Shown here in pieces: positions 607 to 56,525 of a DNA stretch of 64,000 nucleotides (the stretch's first letter is position 1; each line of letters begins with the position of its first letter). Below the pieces are notes generated by a model. The model had not been told where the DNA came from, made no database searches, and worked only from the letters and a program-made list of their open reading frames with translations. A program made the position numbers and the translations under genes. The stretch comes from Adineta ricciae (lineage: Eukaryota > Rotifera > Eurotatoria > Adinetida > Adinetidae): assembly GCA_905250025.1 (NCBI GenBank), contig CAJNOJ010000031.1:434001-498000 (forward strand), read 5' to 3'.

Positions 607-2521
607 TTAATTATCTTTATCATTGTCTGTTTCTGAATCGTTATCTGTGTCTTCATCAGATACATAACCAATAATAAACCGCACTTTTCCCGACAAATGA
701 TCATTGCTTTCTTTTTCTTCTAATTCATTAGACAAATCTTCATTATTGTCACATTTGCTGTTGCCTTTGATTTGACTTTCTAAACATTCTCCAGTACGAT
801 TTGTCGGTAGTGGTGGGTCAGAAAATAGAATTTTGTCGGTATAATCTTCTGTAAGAAAACGCTTGCGTGTAAACACTCGTTGATATCGGTCGACAAGAAC
901 TGAAACAAGCATCGAGACAATTGCCATGCCGTAGATAGCACCAAAACATGCTAAACCTCGGCCAAGTGGAGTTACAGGAGTTAAATCACCATATCTAAGG
1001 AAAACAGCGAATTTTCATGTTAAAAAAAATAGAACATTCTTATTAAATCTTTTAACCTTTGTAAAGATTCTTAAGACCTATGAAAGATCTGTTTTTTTTT
1101 CATGTGTATTTACCCGACTGCTGTTAAAGTAATGATTCCGAAATAAATTGCTTTTGGTATTGAATCATATACAACTTCATTGACATCATTTTCAGCAAAG
1201 TAGATCGCTGCACCGAACAGAAAACCACTGATGGTTAAAAATGAGAGTAGAATAAGAAAATCAGGTATTGATTCTTTCAATGTACACATAAGCACACGTA
1301 AAGATTTCACATGTTGAAACATTCGATAAAGTTTAAAGATACGCATGAAACGAAATATACGTAAGAGACTGATGAAAAAATAAGTTTGAGGCGAAATTTC
1401 CCGATGAAAACCGAGAAGATTGATTGTCAACGTAATGTAGAAAGGAACTAAACAACTCAAGATTGAATAGAATTTATTACAACATAGTGTTTACCAATAG
1501 CAAGAAAGTCGATCCAATTGAGCGCCGATCGAATAAATTCAATACAGGATGGACAAGATATCACCCGTAGACAGAATTCGATTGTAAAAAATATTATACA
1601 AATCGATTGAATGATAAAGAATGGCGATTCAAAATTGGCTGGACAGAGATGAGGAGTCGATGTGTTGTTACTTGCAATTAACAAACCTGAAATAAATCCA
1701 ATTACTAGCAAGTTGTGAAGTCTGTAAATTTCTCTTTCAATACCATCTCCTTCTTGTTCGCATCGATTGTTATATGCAAGTCGGTATTTCGGCAAAGTTT
1801 CGACGGCCAGTTCGACTGCAGATATTAAAATGAATAGAATTGAAACGATATTGATAATCTTTGCTGTCATGGAATATTGCGGATATTCTAAATTTGCCCA
1901 CAAATGACGAAAGAAACGGTTCGTTGGCAAGTGAACTTTTCTAGCTAGTTGTAAATCTTCATCTTTCCGAACTTGTTGGAGTGCATCGGCACCTAGATCG
2001 AAATAATTGATTTCTTCTAAAAATATATCCAATGGAACATTTTCCGGTCGACGAAGACGTCCGTATGATTGATAATAGTACAGAATCGCTTCGAAACATA
2101 ATCGATGCCGATCGAAGAAATATTCGTTCTGGATTTTATCGTAGAACAGCGCTCGACGACGGTGATCACCAAGCAATGTTTGCGGATAGCGATCAAGTGT
2201 TGTTTTCAATGTTTCGAAACGAAGACCAGCGACATTGATTACAACACGAGAATTGACTTGACCATCAGATTTTCTTCGTGTTTTGAAATATAGTTGATCA
2301 TCATCTCGACGTTGACGTAAATCGATTATACTTTGAAGATGTTCGAGTCTGAAGTAATAAAACAAGTTAAAAACGTCAAAAAGATCTTAGATTGACTATA
2401 TACTCTGTTGCTGTTTGACCACTCCATTTCGGATTTTTGTAAATTGTTCGAATACTGAATGAGACAAAATGAATAGTATGATTTTCAAGAGAAAAGCAAT
2501 TCTCTACCTGAATTTTGTCAT
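607..2521 (-). CDS. Shaker-type voltage-gated K+ channel (copy 1)
   Basis: Six-TM K+ channel subunit expected to tetramerise in the plasma membrane. Five exons join in frame: 2508-2521, 2404-2454, 1495-2348, 1114-1447 and 607-994, giving 546 residues. The N-terminal third is a T1/BTB tetramerisation domain (VVINVAGLRFET, then NEYFFDRHR, then YYYQSYGRLRRP). Next come S1, a variable S1-S2 loop, S2, S3 (NWIDFLAIVPFYITL), S4 and the pore with filter TAVGYGD, split by an intron between the two glycines. S4 (LLRIFRFMRIFKLYR) carries five basic residues; the place of the first Shaker arginine appears to be Ser. S6 ends SMLVSVLVDRYQRV and lacks the Pro-Val-Pro kink usual in Kv1-4. The C-terminal tail is acidic. 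The first coding exon encodes only about five residues and was chosen because it restores phase and has a paralogous counterpart. The paralogue is at 8005-10000. Confidence 0.9.
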
Positions 2522-8004: not shown

Positions 8005-10000
8005 ATGCAGAGCACTCAGTCAAATGATAAATTCGTTGGTAGAACATCACGCTCACGAACAGTGACCAAACCATTATCCGCGATTGAAACACGTCGTTTA
8101 GAATATGTTTTTCAGTAAAGAGAATCTCGAAATCATTTCTTTCTCTACCCATAATTTATTTCTTCAGGAACGCACCTTCCAAACGCGCTACCAGCTGGAA
8201 CCCTGCGCAAAGCGATGGGTAAGTCTTAATTTTAATTCCGAATCTTTTATGGTGCTCTTCCTCAGCGATGTGATTAATATCAAAAATTTGCTCCGTCTGA
8301 ATTCCGTTCAATCTCAAAATCGTCATGGAAGTGAGAATTTCGTGGGCGATGATCGTATTGTGATTAATGTTTGTGGTGATCGATACGAAACTCATCGAAC
8401 AACATTAGAATTGTTTCCTGATACGTTACTAGGAAGTTCACGGCGACGAAAGTACTACGATCAAAAGCGGAAAGAATACTTTTTCGACCGGCATCGTGGA
8501 TGTTTTCAAGCAATACTTTATTATTATCAATCAAATGGCCGGCTGAGACGACCAGATTTCATTCCGCTGGATATATTTCTTGAAGAAATAACGTTTTTTC
8601 AACTGGGACCAGAAGCGCTAAAACAAATACGAAAAGATGAAAATATCAAAGAAGTGAAAAAAATTCGTTTGCCCAAAAATCGTCTGCGAAGATCGATATG
8701 GATAACAATGGAATATCCTGATTACTCATTCTTGGCCAAAGTCGTCAACATTATCTCATTAAGCATGGTGCTTATCTCAACCATCACTTTAGCAATCGAA
8801 TCTTTGCCTCAATACTCCGATTTGGATGATTTCGATTGCGAAAAACTATCGTATTCGACTACAACGGAGCCTTCAACAAACACAACAACACTGGGAACAA
8901 CGCCAGAACTGCTGTATGTTTGCCAGTGGTACTATTCTTCACCGTTTTTCATTGTTCAAGTTATTTGTGTAGGATATTTCACAATAGAATTACTTATCCG
9001 AACGTTATGCACACCATCGATACTCGACTTTGTTAAAGATGTTATGAATTGGATTGATCTTTTAGCAGTTATTCCGTTTTATATCTCATTAGGAATTCGT
9101 TTATCAGGTCGAGATGATGAAATCAATTCGAACACGTACGTCGGTCTTCGACTGCTACGTGTACTTCGTCTGGCACGTGTTTTTAAGTTTTTTCGAGTGT
9201 TTAAAAGTATCAAATCTTTGCGCGCATTGGCAACGACAGTCCGAGAATCATTACTGGACTTTTTAATCATGATTATTATTTTAACGTTACTTGGCTTTCT
9301 GTTTGGTGCAGCTGCATATTATGCTGAAAACGATACGAATGCAGTGGCGTTTGATTCGATTCTCAAGGGAACTTATTGGGGAATTATTTCCATCACTAGT
9401 GTCGGGTAAAGATTTCAATATCTGTCGAAATCTATTTGGAATATTCTTTCGTTTAGGTACGGTGATATAGCACCAATAACACCAATTGGACGAGTTATTG
9501 CTTGTTTCTGTGCGTTATTTGGTGCGGCAACAATTGGCATGTTGGTGTCAGTCCTGGTCGATCGCTATCAACGTGTTTATGTACGAAAACTATACAGTCA
9601 AGAAGAAGAAATTGATTTCAGTGACTATATGGATAATGAAAACAATGATCTGGAGTCAAAAGACCATCATTATACGTCAGGACTTCGTCGAAATTCAAAA
9701 ATTGAGGATCCCGATGCACGTGCGCAAGAGAGCGCAAAGAATGCAAGTAGTGCTTTACCAAGTCCTCAAACATCGAATTCGTCATTGGAAGACGAGAACA
9801 ATATGCAAGATGATAATACCGGTCGAATTCAATTCATTATTCGTTATGTTGAAAATGAAGATAAACAAAAATCACCTTGTGAGTCAATGGACGAAACTGA
9901 ATTGGGAACAACAGCTAAACAAACGAATGTTGACAAAGAAGATTTCAAATCATTAGGAGAGGAAGAAATTAGTCGAAGGGTGACTTTCAGTGGTTGTTAG
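8005..10000 (+). CDS. Shaker-type voltage-gated K+ channel (copy 2)
   Basis: Four exons (8005-8114, 8168-8218, 8266-9405, 9457-10000) join in frame to 614 residues. T1 domain: RIVINVCGDRYETHRTTLEL to YYYQSNGRLRRP. S1 follows (NIISLSMVLISTITLAIESL), then a Thr-rich extracellular loop, S2, S3 (NWIDLLAVIPFYISLGIRL) and a full S4 (LRLLRVLRLARVFKFFRVFK) with basic residues every third position. The filter is TSVGYGD, split by an intron at the same place as in copy 1. S6 ends GMLVSVLVDRYQRVYVRK, again without Pro-Val-Pro. The acidic, Ser-rich cytoplasmic tail ends in VTFSGC. The 51-nt second exon and its phase are shared with copy 1, but the S3 intron of copy 1 is absent. The chosen ATG gives an N-terminal extension over copy 1. 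Confidence 0.92.
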
Positions 10001-37354: not shown

Positions 37355-40070
37355 ATGGAACAATACAATGGCAATGACAGTTTCGATACAGATCTGGACG
37401 ATGAACAAGCAGGTATTTGTTTGAATTCGCTTTCGTGTCACTTTTCCATAAGGAAACAGTTAGTCGATCTTAGTTGGTGTATTTTTCTCTTTCTAAATGA
37501 AATTGAAAGATGGTAACCCTTAACTTTTCATCTGCAGGAGTCGAAAGTTATATGTGACTAAGTGGAGCGCAAAGAATACATTAAGCAGATGTTCTATGTG
37601 AGAAATGAAACTGATTCATTGAATATTTTTCTTACTACTAGTCGGCAAAGTCAGTCCTCGATGTATTTGAATATCAATTCCTCATTTTCATCGAAACTTT
37701 CATCGTTTTCTTGTGTAAAATTCTCCTAGCGAAACTCAAAAGCGTATTTGAGATCGTCGCTGTGTATCATTAGACAAGCGTAGTAGAAGCAATGTTCTCT
37801 CTACAAACACTCTTGAGAGAAAAAAAAGTGTTTTTGTTTTGCATGAGAAGATAATGTTTTCTTACTCTTCCACATCATCAACTCAGGTTTGATGTTTAAC
37901 AGAGAATGAATTGAAAGGAAAATATGGCAAATTACACTTTACTTTGTCTAATTGTTTTCATCGAATAATAAGTATGGAGAGTATCGTACTTTTATCGTCT
38001 ATTTTTTGGACGAAAAAGAAAAATTTATTGATGTCCTGTAGAACAGCTCGAGATATTCATCGTACCTCGATTGACATTCGATGAAAAATTAACTGCACAC
38101 CGAGCTAATCGATTGAATCAAACCTTTGGTCAAACAAACATACCGCTCCAATCACATGATGACTTAAGAAACGAAACTCTTGTTCCATTACGGTGTCAAA
38201 TTCCAGCTGAAAATGGTCAGACTATATTCATCGCTTGTTTTTCATATAAATCATTTCTTATTCATTTAGCAAGAGTTCATATCTATGAAAATAGCTGTAA
38301 AACACTCGACATAACCATCGACTGGCAAATCCGAGGTTTTCTTCCTTATGACACAATCAATATCGCTGACCGATCGTTCTCTTTCAATGATTTCCGCGCA
38401 TTTGCAACAGCACTTCAGTCGAATTTAGAAAGTTTAACCTTACATGCGGTTAATCTGACCTCGTCATCACTTTGCGTTCTTTGCCAAGGATTAATTAAAT
38501 GTGTTCGATTGAACCTATTAGATCTTTCGGATAACAAATTAGGTAAACGAGGATTCGATGCATTGGTGGCAACATTGAATGAACTCCCGTTGTTACGTTA
38601 TTTATCATTGGCGAACTGTGAAATTCAAGATTCGTATGGATACAAAATCGGTGATATATGTCGACATCCCAGTTTAGTGGAAGTCAATCTCACTGGAAAC
38701 AAATTTGAAGAGAATGCTTGTATTTTCATTGGCAACGCATTAAGTACAGAAATTCGATGAACTGTACTGTTTTATTCATAAGATTTTATGATTCTAGCGG
38801 AAAACCAAAGTTTAACATATTTAAATTTAAGTTGGAATATGATACGAAGTTATGCATCCATTGCCCTGTTTCGTGGAATTGAAGTGAGGACCGATTTTGT
38901 TTGTTTTCTAATTAGCTTCATGTTTTTCTTCTCGATGAAAAGGTCAACGAATGTTTAACAGAGTTGGATATATCATGGAGTGGATTGAGTTATGATGGAA
39001 GTGTTGCACTTCGCCGAGTGTTATGTGTCAACAAGGTTTTACAACGTTTGAACATAAGTAATTGTAATATTGAATGGATTAGCGCAAAGTTAATCAGTGA
39101 AGGGTTGAGGAAAAACTCGACATTACAACATCTAAATGTAATTTCCGAGAAAAATTTCTTTAAGACAAAGTAAAAACTATTTATTTCATAGTTGGCATAT
39201 AATCCGATAACAACCCATGGTGCACAATATATAATTGAAGCATTGGATACTAATACAGGTGGAATTAATATGCTCGATCTCTCGGTTAGGCGAAAGACTT
39301 GCTCTTGATGATTTTTCAGGAAGTTTTTCTTCGTAGGGTATAACTATTTATACGTCGACTGTTCGTTTAGCTGAAAAAATTGCACGCGAAAGGGATTTCG
39401 TATTGAGATATGACTGTGAAATACCCGTTCATGATATGCTCGGTCGACAATCAGGTATATAAGAAGTTTTTTTTGTCATTAATCCTTCAGCAAACGTCAC
39501 ACGTTGATTCATATTCTGTTTCAGCAACCAAAGATGATTCAATACGTCGAGTAATTCAACATATTGAAGATAGAAATTGGCGTATATTGGAATACTTTCG
39601 AATGTTGAACAAGTCGAATAAACAAGAAATCGACAGCAAAGCTATTACACTTGACATTGCCGTAAGAAATATTCTCTTCTTAATTGTTGGTTTTGTGTAT
39701 AATTATTTATGCGAATTAGAAATCGGGCGCGAAACTGGAAAATGATGAAATCGAAAGTCTTCATCAACGTTTGACGCAACGATCTGGAGAATCATTGACT
39801 TACAAGTATGAAGAAAGAGAGAATTTTTACGAGAAAAGATGTTTTTGTTTCAGAAATTTGAATTCGATTGTGATGGACCAACGATTACGTGATCGATCAT
39901 TGAAAGCTCGACAGGAGAAACACGCGAAAGATATGGAAAAGCGCAATCAGAAGATTCTCGAAACTGTCAGTCATCATTTTCCGGGTATTGAAGTGATAAG
40001 CAAGCATCAAAAACGTCAAGAAGCAATCGAACAATTGGCTAGACCAAGAGTAATCGGTGCTAAAAAATAA
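37355..40070 (+). CDS. LRRC74-like leucine-rich-repeat (RNI-type) protein
   Basis: About seven exons. The first is short and acidic (MEQYNGNDSFDTDLDDEQA); a 632-bp intron, long for this window, separates it from the second (EQLEIFIVPRLTFDEKLTAH). Ribonuclease-inhibitor-type LRRs follow: LNLLDLSDNKLGKRGFDALV, LRYLSLANCEIQDS, LVEVNLTGNKFEENAC, LTYLNLSWNMIRSYASIALF, LTELDISWSGLSYDGSVALR, LQRLNISNCNIEWISAKLI and LQHLNLAYNPITTHGAQYI. A charged, probably helical C-terminus runs RDRSLKARQEKHAKDMEKRN. The LSWN pattern resembles LRRC74A/B. No signal peptide or membrane segment is seen, so it is probably cytosolic. Unlike the F-box/LRR gene at 51925, its repeats are divergent and not one per exon. Function is unknown beyond protein binding. 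Confidence 0.75.
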
Positions 40071-45301: not shown

Positions 45302-45657
45302 ATTCGCTGAACCCCCTTATGCGTCGATTCGCATTATTATAGCGGAAATGAAAAATGCACAAGATGGGTGACAGAGAGAAAAGGAAGATGGTACTTTGTG
45401 ACAAAGTAGAGTAGCAATTGGCGGCTTTAAGAGGCTAACATAAATGTCTAAGCGATCCCTTGTGACGGTCGATTTTTTGTTCAAGAATAGCTCTTTGATA
45501 TAAGATTGATATGTGATCAGGAAAGAATCTAAATGCGAAACTCTATAGGTGCTAATTCGTTTTCCTATCAAGAAATCATTAAATAATGAGTTCGACATAT
45601 ATCCATATATTATCAGAAATAGATTATTGAGTTGAGAACGACGAGAAAGAAACGAGG

Positions 45658-45717
45658 AGAAGAAGAAGAAGATGATGATGATGATGATGAAGAAAAAGAA
45701 AGAAAAGACATAAGAGA
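45658..45717. repeat. GAA/GAT trinucleotide-rich tract
   Basis: Purine-rich simple repeat with consecutive GAA then GAT units, followed by degenerate GAAA. Confidence 0.8.
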
Positions 45718-46061
45718 GAAAAAAGTCAGTAGAAGACAGGAAAAAATCTAACGGAGAAACAGTTTGTCAACAAGTCCTGTCGTTCCCCTTGCTTTCATTA
45801 ATTGAGGCGACATAGTGCGATGTGTTCCTCTTGTTTTATTCAAGAAGTTGTTACCCGAACGAATTGACATTCTTTTCATTTTCATAATTGATCATTAAAA
45901 CTGTAAGAACGGATTAGATTCTTTGACTTTTTCGCTTTCAACTTGTAATATTTTTCGTTTTTCTAGTCCTTCTTTCTGTTTTGTCTGTGTTCTTGTTGAT
46001 ATAATGGAAAACATCTTGAATTCGATTGATCAAATTCGGTTCTCTTGATAAACAACTCGAC

Positions 46062-46749
46062 ATGCAAGTCTTTCCATCGTTTCATCATTCTCTTCTCAAC
46101 TGTTGTCATCTATGGAAATTCATTTTTCTCATTCTTCGAACGACACGGTAAGATTCATCTTGTTTTTCTTGTTTATGCTCTCAAATAACAAATGAGATTT
46201 CAGTTTAATACAATGTCAAATGAATACAACTGTTAATATATCATCGTTGTCTTCAATCAATGTAAGTAGAAACAAAATAATGCAGTACAAGACAGAATGG
46301 ATGATTGGATTTGATTCAATTAGATATTTCCATCAATAATTCTTCGCCCTCAAGATAATTTACCTTTAACTGAACAAGTTATATACGATTTGCGGAATAA
46401 TATGAGAAAAGCCAGTGAAGTCAATGACTTCGACGATGGAGACTATAGTGAAGATGACGATGTCGACTTTGAAGAAGAAAATCATCAACCTCTTTCATTA
46501 CTTCCATCATCATCATCATTGCCAACAATATCTACAACATTGCGTACGACGATGTTCAATTCCCAAATCACCAAAACTCGAACAACAACTGCGACCACAT
46601 TAGTTAAGATTACTACTAATCATCGCGTTGCAGTCATGGAAAGTAAATCATCCGATAATAAACTTACAACACCTTCATCTGCAACTTGTCATTGCCCGCT
46701 ATTTATATATTTCTTATTTTCGTTTAGTTTCTTGTATAGATTCGATTAG
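46062..46749 (+). CDS. Small acidic Ser/Thr-rich surface protein, unrecognised
   Basis: Three exons join in frame to about 167 residues. A basic/polar start leads to a hydrophobic stretch ([15 protein letters not shown]) that can serve as a signal anchor or signal peptide. N-glycosylation sequons (NTTVNISS), a strongly acidic segment with Tyr ([17 protein letters not shown]) and a mucin-like Ser/Thr-rich stretch follow. It ends with a Cys pair and a hydrophobic tail ([14 protein letters not shown]), as in a GPI signal. The acidic Tyr context would suit tyrosine sulfation. The design recalls a short proteoglycan core or mucin, but no family is recognised. It is convergent with the CCDC85 homologue, with only about 70 bp between stop codons. 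Confidence 0.5.
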
Positions 46750-46822
46750 TGAAACATTTCTTTTTCTTTATTTTAAAAAATTTACAAATCTATCTGACAA
46801 TGAAGAGAAAAAACAATTTTCT

Positions 46823-47771
46823 TCATAATAAACAGCTACTTTTCGGTTTCGATCGATCTTCCAAATAGTTCCAAACCAACTAAAACAGGTAAAAGAAACG
46901 ATTGTTAATAGAAAACTTATTTACTCTTCGTTTGCAGAAAACTTTGTTTGTTCATCAATACGTAAAAAATAGAAAAGAAATAGGTTTTTCTTTCTTTTCA
47001 AAGGAAATCGAACATAAAAGAACACGTCCTTGATCGAGAATAAAAATGTCCTGACTTACAGCACAAAATTGTTTGAGTAAGGTTTTTTCCGACTGGTGAG
47101 TTAGACATTGAGTTGTTTGATAAATTTCTACTGTCTAGTGGAGGAAACTCACGTGCTAAGAAATCGAAAAGATGAGTTTCGCCTTACTTTGATAGCATCA
47201 AAGATATTTTCAATAGAGATTTGTTGTTGAAGTTGATCATCAAACGGTGAGTTTAATGAAAATTCTGGTTCGATGGTTACTTTTATTCTGGATAGGTGAT
47301 CGTAAATTGGATTAGATCTTTGAAAACTTGCTGGATAGTTTATAACATCTGTTTGTGATTGTTTCTAGAAAAATTAGATAACGATTAGAACCGGCGATTT
47401 TCTAGTTCATTCTTACATGTTTCTTATTCGAATTTGTAATCATTTGATGAATAATTAATCGAAGGGAATCATTTCCTTTTAAGAGTAATTCCTGTCGTTG
47501 TTCAAGTTCGATTAATTTCTCTTGATAATCCACGATTTGTGAAGTAAGTTTGTCTCTGGCAGTAGCACTAAATACTTTCCATTGTTCAACTAATTCCGAC
47601 ATTTTTTGACGTTCTTTATCAAGTAGAAAACATAATTCTCTTAATTCATCCTGACTTGCAGTTAAAGATGAGGAAGTTTGTCTCATCGCGTTCTCTTCGT
47701 CAATTGATAGCTAAAAGAAAGAAACTCTCAAAGAACAAATTTTCTTCAATGTCTGATTATACTTCTTCCAT
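46823..47771 (-). CDS. CCDC85-family coiled-coil protein
   Basis: Five exons, all phase 0 (47763-47771, 47417-47710, 47188-47364, 47060-47134, 46823-46879), give 203 residues. The first exon is only 9 nt (Met-Glu-Glu), preceded by an in-frame stop. The coiled-coil core runs DELRELCFLLDKERQKMSEL, VEQWKVFSATARDKLTSQIV and DYQEKLIELEQRQELLLKGN. It parallels the CCDC85 signature LCCFLDDDRQK..W..L..LELRQEE. The C-terminus keeps counterparts of the family's AxKVLEVHE and MCNVVWRKLGD motifs: IKTVEIYQ and FCALVWNYLED. Vertebrate members act at cell junctions and in repression with DIPA; role here is unknown. It is shorter than vertebrate proteins and lacks their long Pro-rich middle. Confidence 0.8.
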
Positions 47772-50071
47772 ACGAAATCAATCGCTCAAGTTCAAATCTA
47801 AAATAATCCAATTAATCATTAAGTCAACAAGTCGAATAGAATTGTTCAACAATGTACTTATGTTGAAGAAGTAAATGTCTATACTAGTATATATGCACTC
47901 GAAGATCAAGTGTTCTAATTAAGTTGTATTCTATATTCAAGTAGTGTTAAATATGAAGAAAATCATCAACGATTTTCTTGTCTAATTCTAATGTTTGTAA
48001 ATAGCTAAATATACTTAATAATTATACTTGAACACGTGTTGAAAAAGAAAGACGTACGTGATTGGCAGAACTGATTCGAGATAAAAGTTCTACAGATTGT
48101 CAGTTGTTCTATCAAATAGATAATTATAATGGAATTTGTAATTATCAGATGTTTGACAAGCTGAGTAAATTCTTGACGAAGGACAAATATGTTTGATTAA
48201 GCGAATCATTTTAATCATAACAAGAAAAAAACGAACTTTTTACTTTGTGGAGAAGCAAAAAGCACCGAATCAATCAATGAGTATGAAAATCGAATACGAT
48301 AGGAAAAATAAAGGAAGATCAGGTTGACCGAGCAAAGCTGAGTATATGCCTCGAAGACATCCATATATATTCTGCGATAGCCTAGTCTTGTGCATCTTTT
48401 CAATGCTACTAATCATATGTGACAAATTACATTGATAAGCAAATGTTAACGGAATCTGATTATTAATAGATGATGACTGACTTACTCAATATTACAAGCA
48501 AAAAAGAATGTCTCTCAAATATTTCTTTGATTCCACTAACAAAACAAACTCGAAGTGTTAGATGCCTTTTCATAATTTATCTTCCTACTGAACTCGAGAA
48601 CAAACTAATCGCATAGAAATTTAATCAGTCAATATTTGCTCATTAAAATGATCTCAGAAGCTTTTATACATTTGATCAATCGACGGCCTTGTGTTTCATG
48701 TGATCATTTAAGCCTTCCAACTAAAATTGTTCATACTCATTAAAGCTTTGCTTTTTTTCATGTCTAATTCAGCTTTTTCTCTTTCAAAGAGCATTAGAAT
48801 ACAAAATCTCAGAAAACAAAATAAAAGACAAGTTTTCTCGTACAAATCGGACCGATAAAACAGCGCCATCTTTTTTACGATTGAGGTTATACGTGTCGAT
48901 CAACTATAATTATGCGACATATTACATATGACATACGGGGAACTTGTCCCTCTCATCTCCAACTATTCATGATAGTTTTGCTATGTATTAAATAAATGTT
49001 TTGAATGTGAGGGAAGCATTAGAAGATAGATAATCGTGTGATTTAGACGAAAAAATACAGTAAATGACACGAGTGTTCTGTCCATTTATGAATGCGACGC
49101 GACCAACAGCAGGACTCAATTGCTTTTACTAACTAAGAGAGATTTAGCTATGCTCTTCATCGATCAAAGTTTTAATAAGAAATTTCATTTATTAAAAAAT
49201 ATTCGAAATAATAAGAACATGACTGCTTCCCAAAAAATATTGAAGAAACTCGTGAAAATTACTGAAAAGCACAATATAGTTACAACGTAAATAAAATATT
49301 CTCTTATTGAAGAGTTTTGTAGAAAAATGCTAATCATTTTTTATTAAAAAATAGTTCGTATTTCGTAAGATTACAATTGTATAAATTTTAATTATTAGAC
49401 GATAATAACCAAATATGTACAGTATAAAATGTATATGTATGTGTAGAAGTGCACTTGTTTATTAAATCGTTGAGAAGCATCATTGAATTGAACGATCAAA
49501 TTGTTAATAAAATAAAGAGAGACTGAGAACAAAGACACTATTGAGTAAGGTAACAGTTTCCTCGACGCTATGCCAGCATAAAACATGATCTATAATGTAA
49601 AACTTCTTTACAAACGATTTCATTTCTTTATTTGCTTAAACGTTTTTTATGTTATGAAATTAGTAGATCGAAAGATTTCGAATGGAATGGATCTTGACCT
49701 ATGGTCAAGCACTGAGTTTTCGACATACCTTCTCTCCATACAATATTGTACAACTTTTCGATCATCGGGAGGAAAAATTCGTCGAAATTTTCAGCATAAG
49801 AAAAAAGTTTATCACAAAATCACACGTGTTCATACTATGAAGAATGTTTTCTCTTTATTCATTTATTAAGACAATAAGAGCGCCTAATTCTTTTCCATTT
49901 AAAACACGGATACTTAGGTCAACGTATTTTAGCTATATTCTCTTTCTCGTAGAGATGAGTCTTAGACACATAAATTGTTTGTTTGCTTGCTTGCTTGTGT
50001 GTCCGCAGGGTCAAAAAAACATCGAAAATCGATTTTTCTGAGAAGATATTTTCAGATGCACTTCATTGCGG

Positions 50072-50263
50072 AGACTTCGAATCTGATGCTCGCTCTTCGA
50101 ATTTTTTTAGACAAGGGACCACATTTTTACGAAAAAAAAATTTTTTCTCTCAAAATTGACCAAAGGGCTTTTTGGGTCGAGGAACTCGATTCTGATGTTA
50201 GTTTTTTGAGAACTACAAACAAAAATTTTGAAACAAAGGGTACCCATTCTCGGAAAAAATATG
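50072..50263. repeat. Imperfect tandem dimer (satellite-like)
   Basis: Two units of roughly 85-110 bp share the order GAG-A-CTCGA-TCTGATG, a T-rich stretch, ACAA-GGG and a run of A before T-rich ends. Similarity was judged by eye. Confidence 0.45.
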
Positions 50264-50932
50264 TATAACCATATGATATCGGATATAGTCAAGTGTATAA
50301 GTATGGTAAATGAAATATTCTCGTCATTCTCTGGTGACCTAATAGTTAATTATTGATCTCCATAAATGAACTCTGAAGTAACGTAGCTGTTGTTCATATA
50401 CACGCAATAATGTATTAAAACTATGACATCTGAAATCAATATTTCTACGACAAAGAGCTGAGCGAGTCCAACGACGAGCGTTACTTGTTGTTATCAGCGG
50501 AATCAAATCGTGGAAAATAATTCTAGTAAGAGAGAATATGAATGCGCATGAATTAAGCAATAAAATAGATTTTCAGCCAAATTATATGAGCGATATGCAT
50601 TTCAGCAATAGAAAACCTATGCTGAAGAACTAATTAGAACAATGTAGTTCCATTCGTTTCATAATATAATGCAGAAAGCACAGAGTAAAATCCCATGGAA
50701 CGATATAACATATACCACGCATTACATAAAATACTATCCTCCACAGCCAAATAATAAATCAGCTACTATTTTTGTTCTTCGTTGTAAATGCTCGCATATG
50801 TATGACATGGTTATTGTATTTTAAGAAACTAATCGGCAGTTATCTGTTAACAGAACTACAGGTGTTTTAAAGTAAGATATTACAGCGTTCTTGTAGCTTT
50901 GATGATTGTCTTTAAAGCCATCTGTTTGAGCA

Positions 50933-50961
50933 TATTGAAAAGCGGCTTAGCTTTTTCAATA
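50933..50961. repeat. Short inverted repeat
   Basis: TATTGAAAAGC is followed six bases later by GCTTTTTCAATA, giving an 11-bp stem with one bulge. It is followed by an A/T-rich stretch. Confidence 0.55.
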
Positions 50962-51085
50962 GGCTAAACGCCTTGTTTCCGAAGAGAATCGATAACGTTT
51001 GTTTTTTTCGAAGGTTTTCCACGTTTTCTTATTTACTAAAATGCCATGGGGTAATTAATTCATCAAAATGAATTCACAACAAATT

Positions 51086-51152
51086 GTTAGAGCACCTCAG
51101 TGAGGGAGTTGGCATTCTATTTATGTAAAAAGATGCTGCTGAGTGTTCTAAC
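51086..51152. repeat. Imperfect inverted repeat, about 67 bp
   Basis: GTTAGAGCACCTCAG on the left pairs with CTGAGTGTTCTAAC on the right, with one mismatch and one bulge, around a loop of about 38 bases. It could be a small foldback element or an RNA hairpin. Confidence 0.45.
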
Positions 51153-51815
51153 TCACTCTTCAACACAAAAAAACAGATATATATTTTAGGAGTGACAATT
51201 TAACTTAACTTTAAGTGTTCAAGTTAACGTCACCCTTGCGGTAAACCATAGCTCAATTTTATATTTTGTGGCTTCAAAAAGAAATAAAAGATCATGTGAC
51301 TGGTTTTTCAAGTTGACAAATGATCATTTTTTCTTGTTTCTTTTATCTATCATCGAATAAGACTCGGGAAGAATGAAACGAACACACTGAGAGATGCTGC
51401 ATAAAACTCTCAGCAAACTATATCGTAAAACTTTCCACAGTCATGTGTTTTTTTTACCGAAACACGTCAAATGGTGCAAATCGATCAGTGAAAACTGACT
51501 GGTTAGCATTTAGCGTTCTTGAAAACAAAATTTACATAATCAAAATAAATCTCTGATGTAAGCTGTATAGTTTTTTTAACTTCCACTATACTTTTTAGCT
51601 AAAAAAATTAATTTAGAGGTGTCAATTTCTTTTCAAGAAAATCGAATCGGCTTGCAAAAGCATAAAAGATTTCCGACTTTTAATTCTTGAAACTTCTATT
51701 TTAAATGTCAAAACAGAATTCAATGAGCATGCGTATTCTAACGTCATCTTTCTGCGCACGCCAACAATTCGTAACTGTTGAAATGATTACACGTCAGTTG
51801 TTTTCGTCAAAAGCA

Positions 51816-51825
51816 TATATAAATA
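51816..51825 (+). promoter_or_regulatory. TATA box of the F-box/LRR gene
   Basis: TATATAAATA lies about 100 bp upstream of the ATG at 51925 in otherwise mixed sequence, a plausible core-promoter position. Confidence 0.5.
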
Positions 51826-51924
51826 CATCACCACCATGAGTTAGTATTCATAACGAACAAAGTCAAACATTTTTCATCGTCTCCAGTCTCTACAGTACGG
51901 TCTGCTACACGATTGAAACACAAC

Positions 51925-53888
51925 ATGCATACATTTTCCACATTACCCGTCGAACTTGTTTATCGAATTATGGATCATCAAAATGCGCAAACGCTATTTG
52001 GTTCAATGCAAAATATTTCCCGGCGGCTCAATCAGATTCTGAGCACCTATGAGCGGTATCGAGTAAGTTTACTTTGCACCTTAACACTCTTGTCGGATGT
52101 GCTACACATAAGCCTAATGATATTCGACGCCGTAAATTTCCTCATAGGAAGAGGTAAAGTAATTTCATAATCCACAAATAATTTGATTGAATAAGAAAAT
52201 AACAGTGCAAAGTCATACGAAATCAAGCATTCCTCCACTCTCTCGCCTTTCCGCTATATATCTTAAACTATTCGATACAAAAGCGCATCAACTATAACTT
52301 TTGATGAAACTTCACAAATGAAGCAAACTGACCTCCACAATTTCTGGACCTATGCCTATATTAATTCTAACCATCAACCACACCGAATCCAACTCCCACA
52401 TATCCCAAGAGTAGTATTTCAATTTCATTGAAGGGCGCCCTCAAAAGAGATATCTCGCTACAATCAATAACTATTGATAGTTATATCTTACTCTTTCCAC
52501 TCGATTAGCTCGCAGTAATCTCGTGTCTATATTGCCAACACAGCACCGCTTCTCTCAACACATTGTTTCCTGCGCAACAATTACCATCATCATCCACACC
52601 TAACAATACAGATCTACATCCAACTGCTCCCTAAAAATCTTCCCCAAACATGACTATTTCACATCACACATATACAATCACAACTCTCATCAAAGATTCT
52701 CTTTGCTATTTGACCTTTTCATATTATAATGCTTTCATGTAGACACTCACCACACTAAACCTGTCCGCCAACAGAATCGGTGATGAAGGGGCACAACACA
52801 TTGCGGATGCGTTGCGAACAAACACGGTAATATTGATCTCATTTCACGGAAGTTGACGCACTCAGTCTCTCTCACACCTACAGACACTCACCACACTAAA
52901 CCTATACGGTAACGAAATTTACTGTGAAGGAGCACAACACATTGCGGACACGTTGCGAACGAACACGGTAATATTGATCTCATTTCACGGAAGGTAACGT
53001 ACTCAGTTTCTCTCACACCTACAGACACTCACCACACTAATTCTCAGTTGGAACAGAATCGGTGCTGAAGGGGCACAACACATTGCGGATGCGTTGCGAA
53101 CAAACACGGTAATATTGATCTCATTCCACGGAAGGTGACGTACTCAGTTTCTCTCACACCTACAGACACTCACCACCCTCGATCTCTGCAGTAACGGAAT
53201 CGATGCTGAAGGGGCACAACACATTGCAGATGCGTTGCGAACGAACACGGTAATATTGATCTCATTTCACGGAAGGTGAAGCATTCAGTCTCTTGCACAC
53301 CTACAGACACTCACCACCCTCCATCTCCGCGGTAACGGAATCGATGCTGAAGGGGCACAACACATTGCGGATGCGTTGCGAACAAACACGGTAATATTGA
53401 TCTCATTTCACGGAAGGTAACGTACTCAGTTTCTCTCACACCTACAGACACTCACCACACTCGATCTCGGCGGTAACCTGATGGGTGCTGCAGGAGCACA
53501 ACACATTGCGGAGACGTTGCGAACGAACACGGTAATATTGATCTCATTTCACGGAAGGGGAAGCACTCAGCCTCTCTCACACCTACAGACACTCACCACA
53601 CTCGATCTCAGCAATAACGGAATTGGTGATGAAGGAGCACAACACATTGCAGATGCGTTGAGAACGAACACGGTAGTATTGATCTGATTTCACGGAGGGC
53701 AAAGTACTCAGTCTATCTCACACCTACAGACACTCACCACTCTAGGTCTCAATGGGAACGGAAGCGGTCGTGAAATAGCTGAAAATATTGCGGACGCGTT
53801 GCTTAGGAATGCAGTAAGCCTAATGCTGTGTTGAAGGGAATTCGAAATATTTGATTTACGTTTCTCTTAGAGCGTCAAGATGGTGTAG
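51925..53888 (+). CDS. F-box plus tandem leucine-rich-repeat protein
   Basis: Exon 1 (51925-52062) encodes an F-box-like motif (FSTLPVELVYRIMDHQNAQT, then LFGSMQNISRRLNQILSTYE), the adaptor that binds Skp1 in SCF ubiquitin ligases. After a 680-bp intron come eight exons of exactly 84 bp: 52743-52826, 52884-52967, 53025-53108, 53166-53249, 53307-53390, 53448-53531, 53589-53672 and 53730-53813. Each encodes one 28-residue RNI-type LRR of the form TLTTLxLxxNxIxxEGAQHI plus ADALRTNT. The last repeat is degenerate, and a short final exon ends SVKMV. The seven introns between repeats are each 57 bp and nearly identical. The predicted protein is about 275 residues. The LRR stack would form the substrate- or ligand-binding face. 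Expression, and whether the F-box truly binds Skp1, are not shown. Confidence 0.82.
52743..53813 (+). repeat. 141-bp exon-intron tandem array (eight units)
   Basis: Perfect 141-bp periodicity: 84-bp exon plus 57-bp intron, eight exons and seven introns. Intron sequences GTAATATTGATCTCATTTCA through CACACCTACAG are almost invariant. Introns 52968-53024 and 53391-53447 are identical base for base. Confidence 0.95.
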
Positions 53889-54613
53889 ATCGTGCGATGA
53901 ATGGAATGGGAGAAGCGAGTGTGAGTCTGGTGAGTCTTTTCGTAGAAAGAGTTTTGTTCGAGGGAGAAGTTGGTCGATATCATTTGGTGTGTGATTTGGG
54001 TGACGTTGAGAGGCAGTTAGTGAATAGAAAATGAATTGTGTTGTGAGAAGTGGATGTGACGTGAATGAGAATCTTTTTGTTGTGAAAAAATATATGTGGA
54101 ATAGGTGGAAGTGAATGCTTTAGCTATGAAGGTGTAACAGAGCAGTGTTTGATGGAAGAGGTGATATGGCAAGATACGCTTATGAGAGGTTCTCATGGAT
54201 TGGAATTTGTTTCTGAAAGTGCGTGATTGACAAGACAACATTGCTGTAGACTGCTCGAGTATATTTGAGATATAGCAGAATTGAATCGACAGGAGTGCAG
54301 CACGTATACATTTTGCGTGTCATTTCTCGTAAAGGCAGGGTGATCAGACTATGATACTTTGAACGGGAGTGATGTTTCATTAGTATTTAGCTGTTTTATG
54401 TTTGATTCCAAAGCGTAAATATATTGAGAGCTTGATAATGAAGTTTTATGTTTGTTTGTAGTTTGTTTTTGGAGAGGATAGTATGTATGCATTATCTATG
54501 AATTCTGTAGTGCATTGGAAAGAAACAATGTATTATATAATGAATGTTTCGTTAACTGAAATTACAACTGTTGACCCAGATTTGACAACATTGTTGAAAA
54601 TTTCACTAGATGA
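53889..54613. other. Spacer between convergent F-box genes
   Basis: About 725 bp of G/T-rich plus-strand sequence, probably the 3' UTR and flank of the F-box/LRR gene. No LRR exon on the minus strand could be found here for the downstream F-box exon. Confidence 0.5.
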
Positions 54614-54805
54614 TTAGTTTAGCAGAGAGCTACTACTACTTTGTTTCGACATACTCACCAGATATCGATCGTAAGTGTTGAGAATCTTGTTGAATCGCTG
54701 GCAGACATTTTGCATTGAACAAAATAATGTTTTTTTACTCTCGTGATCCAAAATACGATAAAAAATTTCGACTGGTAAATTGAGGAAGCAGGACATAGCT
54801 TTCAC
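54614..54805 (-). pseudogene. Orphan F-box exon, paralogue of 51925 exon 1
   Basis: It encodes FLNLPVEIFYRILDHESKKT then LFCSMQNVCQRFNKILNTYD, aligned along its length with exon 1 of the F-box/LRR gene. A good donor (CTG|GTGAGT) sits at the same place as in that gene. On the minus strand downstream there is no LRR exon before the neighbouring gene's 3' flank. If unspliced, the frame ends after a Ser-rich run. It is either a gene remnant, an inverted partial duplicate, or a gene whose repeats lie elsewhere or were lost. Confidence 0.6.
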
Positions 54806-56525
54806 TTTGCGTTCTTCAAAATGACTTTAAAATGTTCGGTGTTGGTGTTTGAATACATAGTTGGATATGTCTTTGTTTTTTGTTTTGTGATTATCAGTAG
54901 TTGATGGCGAAATTACTTTTTACTTCCTCGCTAGTTTAAGATAATGCAAATGAAGCGAAACATGACATACCCGAAAGCGAATGTTAATTTTATTGCGAAT
55001 AGAAGGAGGTTTAGTATGCATAGCAGTATGTTGAAATCTAGTGAAAGTGTAAAAGATAAAATATAAGTGAACATATTTCATAATATATTCTTATAAGAAA
55101 AGTAAGAAACAATCCCTTTTTGTACCAGCATTAAATTTTTTGAATTGATTCGAAATATATTTCATGCAAAGTAGTTGTTGACATTTTAGTATGTTTTGTA
55201 AATTATATCCAAAGAACTGTAATATAAGATTTACCTTTCGTGTTCGTGGACATTCTGTTGAAACAACACTATTTCATCATGAATGCGAAGTGCTTTAACT
55301 CAGAAAAAGTGATGACTGTATCATAAATATGAACTCAACGATTATTCTCAATGCCATATAGATGGTAGTTTTGAGGGGCACACTTTATTGTTGATACATC
55401 AAGGAATTTCTAGTTGTTCCAACGAAATATGATCAAATATACTCACATTAAAGTTTCCAATATAGTTGAGTGAAATTCATTGCTCTCTGTATTTCTCGTT
55501 TTACTCTTCGTATATGGGTACATTTATCCATCCGCATACACGTGGACTCGAGCGAGAAATACAGAAAGCGATAAATTTCATTTTATTACACTGGGGATTT
55601 TAGTGTGAAAGTATTTTCTCGCTATTTGGTCATGTTTCATCGAACGAATTAGAATTGTTTTTAGTTATTGCGACAACAGTGAATGGTAAAAATGGATCTA
55701 GTCCCACGATTCTCGTCTGAAAAAGTCGTGTTTGGAGTCAACAGAAAGACAAAAGAAAATCCTTCTATCCCATGCAATTTTTTTTGAATTTCAACTCCAT
55801 AATTAAATATTAAAACTTTCAACGCTCTAGAAAAAACTCTAGACTACTTTTCGTATTCCGACACTAAAATAGAGAAACAAAAAAGCTTACATGAAATTGT
55901 AAAAAAAAACATTTCTCTGTCGCCTCGTGTCATTCTAACCTGAATACAATAAAAATCGTTATACGAAAACTATTTTTGGAAATATTCGTTTTCTGCACTA
56001 GAATATGTTTGTCTTTTTTTCCGAGTATTTCGATCAGATGAAACTTTGGTAGTATTTAGGTTAGGTTTGTTTCTATACACAAAAAATTTAAGGTCAAGAA
56101 GTTTACACGAAGCCGGACGCAACTTTTGAAGGGAGAAGTTCTTGAACGCCATGCTTTCGCAATAGCTAAATAGTTCAATAGTTGAATAAACTTTCAAGTT
56201 TGACACTATAACTGTTTAGTGTCTGATAGATGGTGCTAGAATGCGAGAAAAGATTTCAACCCCTCCAATCCATTGTCTACGAATCTGCGTACTCATAACT
56301 GAGCCAATAGATAAACTGCGTCGCTAGCGTCTCCTACCGACATGGTATATGTATCAACAAACATGGCTAAGAATTCTATTGGTTTGCGCTTCGTTCAAAT
56401 CGAATAAATTTTACAATGATAAAAATTGAGATAATATTTGTTTTCTTTCTCACCTTTCATTCTGATTAAGATATGTAAAATAATCTCAATTAAATCAATC
56501 GTTACTAAACAAACAAAGAAAAAGA
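54806..56525. other. Intergenic between divergent F-box exon and AP-1 gamma
   Basis: About 1.7 kb of AT-rich sequence. Only short spurious frames are seen, with no repeat or RNA recognised. Confidence 0.5.

Follow-up and report, generated by a model that had tools for sequence, protein, structure and literature searches.

The variable lymphocyte receptors of lampreys consist of leucine-rich repeat (LRR) modules with hypervariable residues on the concave face. Jawless-vertebrate LRR segments are also mentioned in PMC6642158. Its available part describes most human NOD and NLRC genes as giving each 28-aa LRR a frame-preserving exon of its own, and also covers 171-bp exons of two LRRs each in NLRP3 and a consensus for the ribonuclease-inhibitor (RI) type of LRR, 28-29 aa long and reading LxxLxLxx(N/C)xLxxx.... 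The module as such, one LRR in one exon, is therefore already known. In bacteria, F-box/LRR architecture is presumably represented by the GALA proteins (PDB 9j7j and 4xa9, both matched here). As for dispersal, the accessible text of PMC3846280 describes intron-containing host genes of Adineta vaga framed by direct copies of Penelope elements, notes a pLTR 3' of one LRR gene, at its very end, and reports an 8-bp target-site duplication in an NRPS case, and mobile elements are linked to innovation in the F-box family of Caenorhabditis in the part of PMC12062965 that was available.

The locus considered here lies in a window of 64,000 nt, the whole stretch of DNA that was analysed, from the bdelloid Adineta ricciae (GCA_905250025.1, contig CAJNOJ010000031.1, positions 434,001 to 498,000 of the forward strand). 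Like the human NOD and NLRC genes, as portrayed in the available part of the source, its array has one 28-aa LRR per frame-preserving exon. Unlike them, the gene has an F-box-like start and no NACHT domain in its predicted product, and its 57-bp array introns are alike in sequence and co-duplicated, with 4-19 units in one genome. An F-box-like start followed by RI-type LRRs is shared with F-box/LRR proteins, bacterial GALA included, from which the gene differs in its modular exon-intron array, variable count and hypervariable exposed codons, its SCF binding being putative. In contrast to the lamprey receptors, the modules are already assembled in the genome, with splice sites. Like the Penelope-framed genes of Adineta vaga, to the extent that the available text portrays them, the intron-containing gene lies between direct element copies at some loci; unlike them, it has a terminal element of 0.5-1.2 kb without the 8-bp target duplication, and the dispersal appears to resemble that of the Penelope-framed genes rather than to match it. 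In the available text of the literature searched on bdelloid and rotifer LRR and F-box genes, NLR exons, tandem exons, concerted evolution, F-box selection and Helitrons, no such array is described, and no F-box/LRR family turned up in it that combines co-duplicated introns of equal length, 4-19 units in one genome and hypervariable exposed codons. The locus probably belongs to a family of F-box-type substrate receptors with RI-type LRRs that evolves by in-frame module turnover together with diversifying selection on exposed residues.

The original prediction of eight 84-bp LRR exons and seven 57-bp, phase-0 GT..AG introns at 52743..53813 proved exact. The features of the gene and of the unit around it are as follows.

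49936-50489, plus strand: terminal sequence resembling a mobile element, forming the sharp 5' edge of the dispersed unit, limits to within a few bases (14 copies; solo copies)
50490-51924, plus strand: upstream region common to family places (DNA search, best 40 of 77 candidates)
51925-52062, plus strand: first coding exon, 46 aa, F-box-like (24 full-length copies compared; PF12937 at family level only)
52063-52742, plus strand: intron 1, 680 bp, GTAAGT...TAG, non-coding (intron comparison and rejected alternative frame)
52743-52826, plus strand: LRR exon 1 (84 bp, open)
52827-52883, plus strand: 57-bp intron (GT..AG, phase 0)
52884-52967, plus strand: LRR exon 2 (84 bp, open)
52968-53024, plus strand: 57-bp intron (GT..AG, phase 0)
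53025-53108, plus strand: LRR exon 3 (84 bp, open)
53109-53165, plus strand: 57-bp intron (GT..AG, phase 0)
53166-53249, plus strand: LRR exon 4 (84 bp, open)
53250-53306, plus strand: 57-bp intron (GT..AG, phase 0)
53307-53390, plus strand: LRR exon 5 (84 bp, open)
53391-53447, plus strand: 57-bp intron (GT..AG, phase 0)
53448-53531, plus strand: LRR exon 6 (84 bp, open)
53532-53588, plus strand: 57-bp intron without in-frame stop (GT..AG, phase 0)
53589-53672, plus strand: LRR exon 7 (84 bp, open)
53673-53729, plus strand: 57-bp intron (GT..AG, phase 0)
53730-53813, plus strand: LRR exon 8, diverged cap unit (84 bp, open)
53814-53870, plus strand: last intron, 57 bp, differing from the array introns (sequence comparison)
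53871-53888, plus strand: terminal coding exon, 5 codons and stop, SVKMV* (reading frame)
53889-54543, plus strand: 3' region common to other copies (homology to family copies)

Exon starts fall at 52743 + 141k (k = 0 to 7), each exon encodes 28 aa, and most LRR exons follow the residue pattern TLTTLxLxxNxIxxEGAQHIADALRTNT. TRF reports a period of 141 with 7.3 copies and a score of 1417, and a repeat search returns seven 300-nt copies spaced 141 throughout, so the array is not a chance arrangement. Mean pairwise identity is higher among the introns (0.90) than among exons 1-7 (0.84), and an in-frame stop is present in 6 of the 7 introns, intron 6 being the exception. Exon 8 ends in ALLRNA, and the intron that follows it is again 57 bp long, with a sequence unlike that of the array introns. 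Splicing as drawn, which is predicted from the sequence, would give a product of 275 aa: 46 aa of F-box-like sequence, 8 x 28 aa and SVKMV. A frame that continues past the first exon into intron 1 (VSLL...) was tried as an alternative exon in 25 copies and rejected; it diverges equally at all three positions of the codon (0.246, 0.235, 0.241) and stops occur in several copies, and it is therefore taken as intronic.

The first coding exon is under constraint, with no stops in 24 full-length copies and a dN/dS of 0.23. Its reading as an F-box, part of the original prediction, stands moderately well for the family, where PF12937 is matched by 10 of the 10 members scanned at a permissive E<=10 (best 1.4e-5) and PF00646 by 7 of 10 (best 2.6e-4), and less well for the window copy, whose whole product has no F-box match at E<=1. 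The window first exon alone gives PF12937 at E 0.17, a faint hint of an F-box in this copy, and a PDB search with the F-box-like exon found no match at E<=10; membership in an SCF complex is putative. The product matches Pfam LRR_6 at E 2.3e-44, and its PDB matches include a leucine-rich repeat protein (4r5d, the best), ribonuclease inhibitor, GALA proteins, NLRP and RanGAP chains. The repeats agree with the RI type in length (28-29 aa) and in consensus, and the domain search found no NACHT in the 275 aa.

The introns mark the DNA as eukaryotic; (TGTGGG)n tracts occur in the genome but say nothing about the host, since the control pattern is that repeat in reverse, and a search for a spliced-leader sequence had no hit. 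The assembly searched (130.46 Mb, 1033 contigs) contains at least 69 matches to the first coding exon, itself included, on 55 contigs (identity >=78%, E <= 4e-17), with more distant relatives beyond; this is a lower bound for close copies, since 150 of 257 candidates were scored. Among the best 40 of 88 candidates in a DNA search with 51800-54100, matches span the promoter, intron 1, the array and the 3' region; most of the long matches are 75-86% identical. Upstream, longer matches reach 81-93% over 50500-51700 (best 40 of 77 candidates), and the motif TATATAAAT at 51816-51824 is one that we take to be TATA-like. Members on C7, C52, C440, C405, C443, C997, C591 and C239 are at most a few kb away from the end of their contig, either through repeats breaking the assembly or through a subtelomeric position.

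Could the family be mobile DNA, in which the F-box/LRR gene travels as a passenger or works for the element and is not a host recognition gene? Its sharp 5' edge at 49936 speaks for this, being common to the 14 copies read, whose 10 upstream-flank groups show no mutual match beyond a few edge bases (0.6-2.7 kb read). So does a second element copy that starts 3' of the gene, in the same direction, at six loci (C98, C712, C177, C75, C188 and C187). Direct terminal repeats around the intron-containing gene were found at some of the loci read and are absent from the window copy, whose 3' side is cut: its homology stops near 54543, and other copies share sequence with each other further 3'. Position 49936 was rejected as the unit's own end. 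The 49936-50489 sequence terminates family copies but occurs solo too, its solo form ending near 50488-50489, and a second subfamily (L033, L035, L036, L037) begins near 50489 without it, so the 5' edge belongs to the element and is not part of the gene. That second subfamily speaks against the idea of mobile DNA. On the 3' side, four or five of the twelve regions compared lack an element start or end among the matches listed (L058 and L060 have neither), C311 (L059) has the element end only among those matches, and the 3' regions of L061, L062 and L063 do not match that of C98. Inspection by eye of the open reading frames of L036 and L041 revealed no element enzyme and no evident second gene inside the dispersed unit, and there is no clear target duplication: six solo and two right-hand copies were compared, none with a shared stretch as long as 8 bp. 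Hairpins are predicted at both ends of solo element copies. Empty-site checks gave only short matches elsewhere for the window left flank (45500-49940) and, for the left flank of the C98 copy, matches elsewhere only in two repeated stretches. Helitron_like_N genes occur in the genome and share a single contig, C384, with the listed element places, about 50 kb apart. Taken together, we regard it as unlikely that the gene is only a component of mobile DNA.

Module turnover was followed with a position-specific scan that requires an open 84-bp frame and misses units with stops. The arrays read are part of the at least 69 copies; L027, which lies inside the piece read from C239, and L006, whose place is that of L041, are left out. 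It located 316 LRR units, preceded by AG and followed by GT in 312. Gaps within arrays are exactly 57 bp in 280 of 283 cases and 55, 51 and 202 bp in the others, the last (in L034) being probably a broken unit; two gaps of 965 and 5477 bp, which separate distinct unit stretches, are not counted among the 283. In one subset of the arrays, 226 of 249 57-bp introns contain an in-frame stop. Arrays with both the cap and the first-exon side in view count as complete; there are 23, and their unit numbers are 4, 6, 6, 6, 7, 8, 8, 8, 8, 9, 9, 9, 10, 11, 11, 12, 12, 12, 13, 15, 17, 18 and 19, bearing out within one assembly the original prediction that array length varies while frame and register stay intact. 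These 23 form a ready comparison set for measuring module turnover.

Repeat number is thus not fixed, a fixed count having been named beforehand as the outcome that would speak against the prediction: among the 14 copies with the 5' edge read, four pairs have upstream flanks 87-97% identical, and all four differ in unit number in this one assembly, in which tandem arrays can be misassembled. The pairs, which may be alleles or duplicated segments, have 4 and 18 units (C133/C627), 12 and 6 (C255/C157), 6 and 15 (C98:38k/C239:105k), and 9 plus one probably broken and 13 (C9/C103). C255 and C157 agree in order over units 1-3 (94%) and in their caps (92%), which argues for gain or loss of whole internal units; the three remaining pairs show no clear colinearity of their units, which are 84-91% alike at best, with caps at 82-83%.

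Units are homogenised within arrays. In tests on 27 arrays (without L035 and L008, and predating L078, L079 and the full C239 array), of which 26 have at least 4 exon-intron units, 181 of 239 units have their closest match within their own array, against 4% expected at random, and intron divergence is 0.126 within arrays (26 arrays) versus 0.195 between them (325 pairs). Six unit pairs have at most 2 differences in 141 bp, and four of the six are adjacent. The duplication process may be unequal exchange or slippage.

The constant length of the array introns sets them apart from other introns of the gene. For intron 1 the rate is 0.95 gap events for every 57 aligned bases, with a divergence of 0.208 (190 pairs), in the 20 of 25 loci where it measures 600-760 bp, five of 419-491 and 989 bp being left out; the longest, in L041 (C440), is 989 bp against about 680 and apparently carries an insertion. 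The last intron does not belong to the tandem unit; with the first AG taken, it measures 57 bp in 13 of 22 copies and 58-61 bp in 9. Length deviants thus number 3 of 283 for array introns versus 9 of 22 for the last intron, a difference with a Fisher p of 1.7e-9 that is only indicative because the rows are related, and equal length may hide compensating indels. In our view, short introns are favoured as such and the turnover of units additionally removes length variants; selection on spacing may also account for the constancy.

Within the exons, codons 6, 8, 9, 11 and 14 are hypervariable. Their within-array divergence at positions 1 and 2 is 0.467, nearly four times that of the introns, and in every one of the 26 arrays their pN is above the intron divergence (0.425 against 0.126 on average). 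The remaining LRR codons have a pN of 0.082 and a pS of 0.153, pN being the lower of the two in 23 of 26 arrays. Third-position divergence is low at the intervening codons (0.16 at codon 7, 0.04 at codon 10, 0.17 at codon 12), which speaks against a local or regional mutation hot spot. At the variable codons pS is also high, 0.37, and a crude count puts pN/pS there at only about 1.15, so the argument for selection rests on the introns and neighbouring codons; fourfold third positions of codon 9 differ in 41% of same-residue pairs versus 19% at other codons. Codons 6, 8, 9 and 11 are, we assume, the exposed positions on and beside the concave strand in the ribonuclease-inhibitor LRR consensus. 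The concentration of diversity at exposed LRR positions favours the recognition role of the original prediction, and ligand recognition by the LRR surface itself stays conjectural.

These patterns bear on whether the array is a coding minisatellite, whose units arise by slippage and drift neutrally in a dispensable multicopy family, as adjacent near-identical units, a high copy number and a few broken-looking units or splice sites (4 of 316 without AG|GT, one 202-bp gap) would suggest. A stop-bearing unit would leave a long gap, however, and with only 1 of 283 gaps long the open-frame scan can have missed few; the first exon is constrained, and the codon-specific pattern, of restraint at most LRR codons and excess over the introns at the variable ones, argues against neutrality, which makes this account quite improbable. 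That modularity is kept mainly for alternative splicing by exon skipping, and not for evolutionary change in copy number, is very improbable, since copies differ in unit number at the DNA level, although every LRR exon is frame-preserving and the available part of PMC6642158 calls strict exon-LRR correspondence a precondition for it in human NLRs.

In the family evolving by in-frame module turnover, each LRR would be one 84-bp exon plus one 57-bp intron that moves as a 141-bp unit. The exact modules and, in one assembly, their variable counts are observed. Tandem gain or loss of whole units would alter LRR number with frame and register kept, and turnover would homogenise introns and scaffold residues within an array; selection would meanwhile diversify the exposed residues at codons 6, 8, 9 and 11, plus 14. 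The F-box would tether an LRR-bound target to an SCF ubiquitin ligase. Within one genome, the exon-intron module would let an LRR surface vary in both length and residues with its frame unbroken. In a bdelloid host this is relevant to the ways in which recognition diversity could continue to arise in a long-asexual lineage, and to the dispersal of intron-containing genes by mobile elements. A tentative and rather doubtful extension is that dozens of element-bounded F-box/LRR genes, their 141-bp units gained, lost and homogenised and their ligand face strongly selected, form a germline-diversified repertoire in a supposedly asexual animal; if so, ubiquitin-ligase targets such as parasite or selfish-element proteins could be re-specified without sex.

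Other sequences in the window were noted as well. Just beyond the array gene, the minus strand at 54653-54778 carries another F-box-like exon (NLPVEIFYRILDHESKKTLFCSMQNVCQRFNKILNTYDRYL) that shares 57% identity with the first, and 55008-55660 is another repeat, with an 89% match to C31:382383-383034 on the same contig. Farther upstream, 38071-38760 (plus strand) holds an open reading frame with RI-type LRR-like motifs, recognised by eye, in one open frame and not modular. Two oppositely oriented genes, named by eye as voltage-gated potassium-channel-like, occupy 1110-2365 (minus strand) and 8105-10000 (plus strand).
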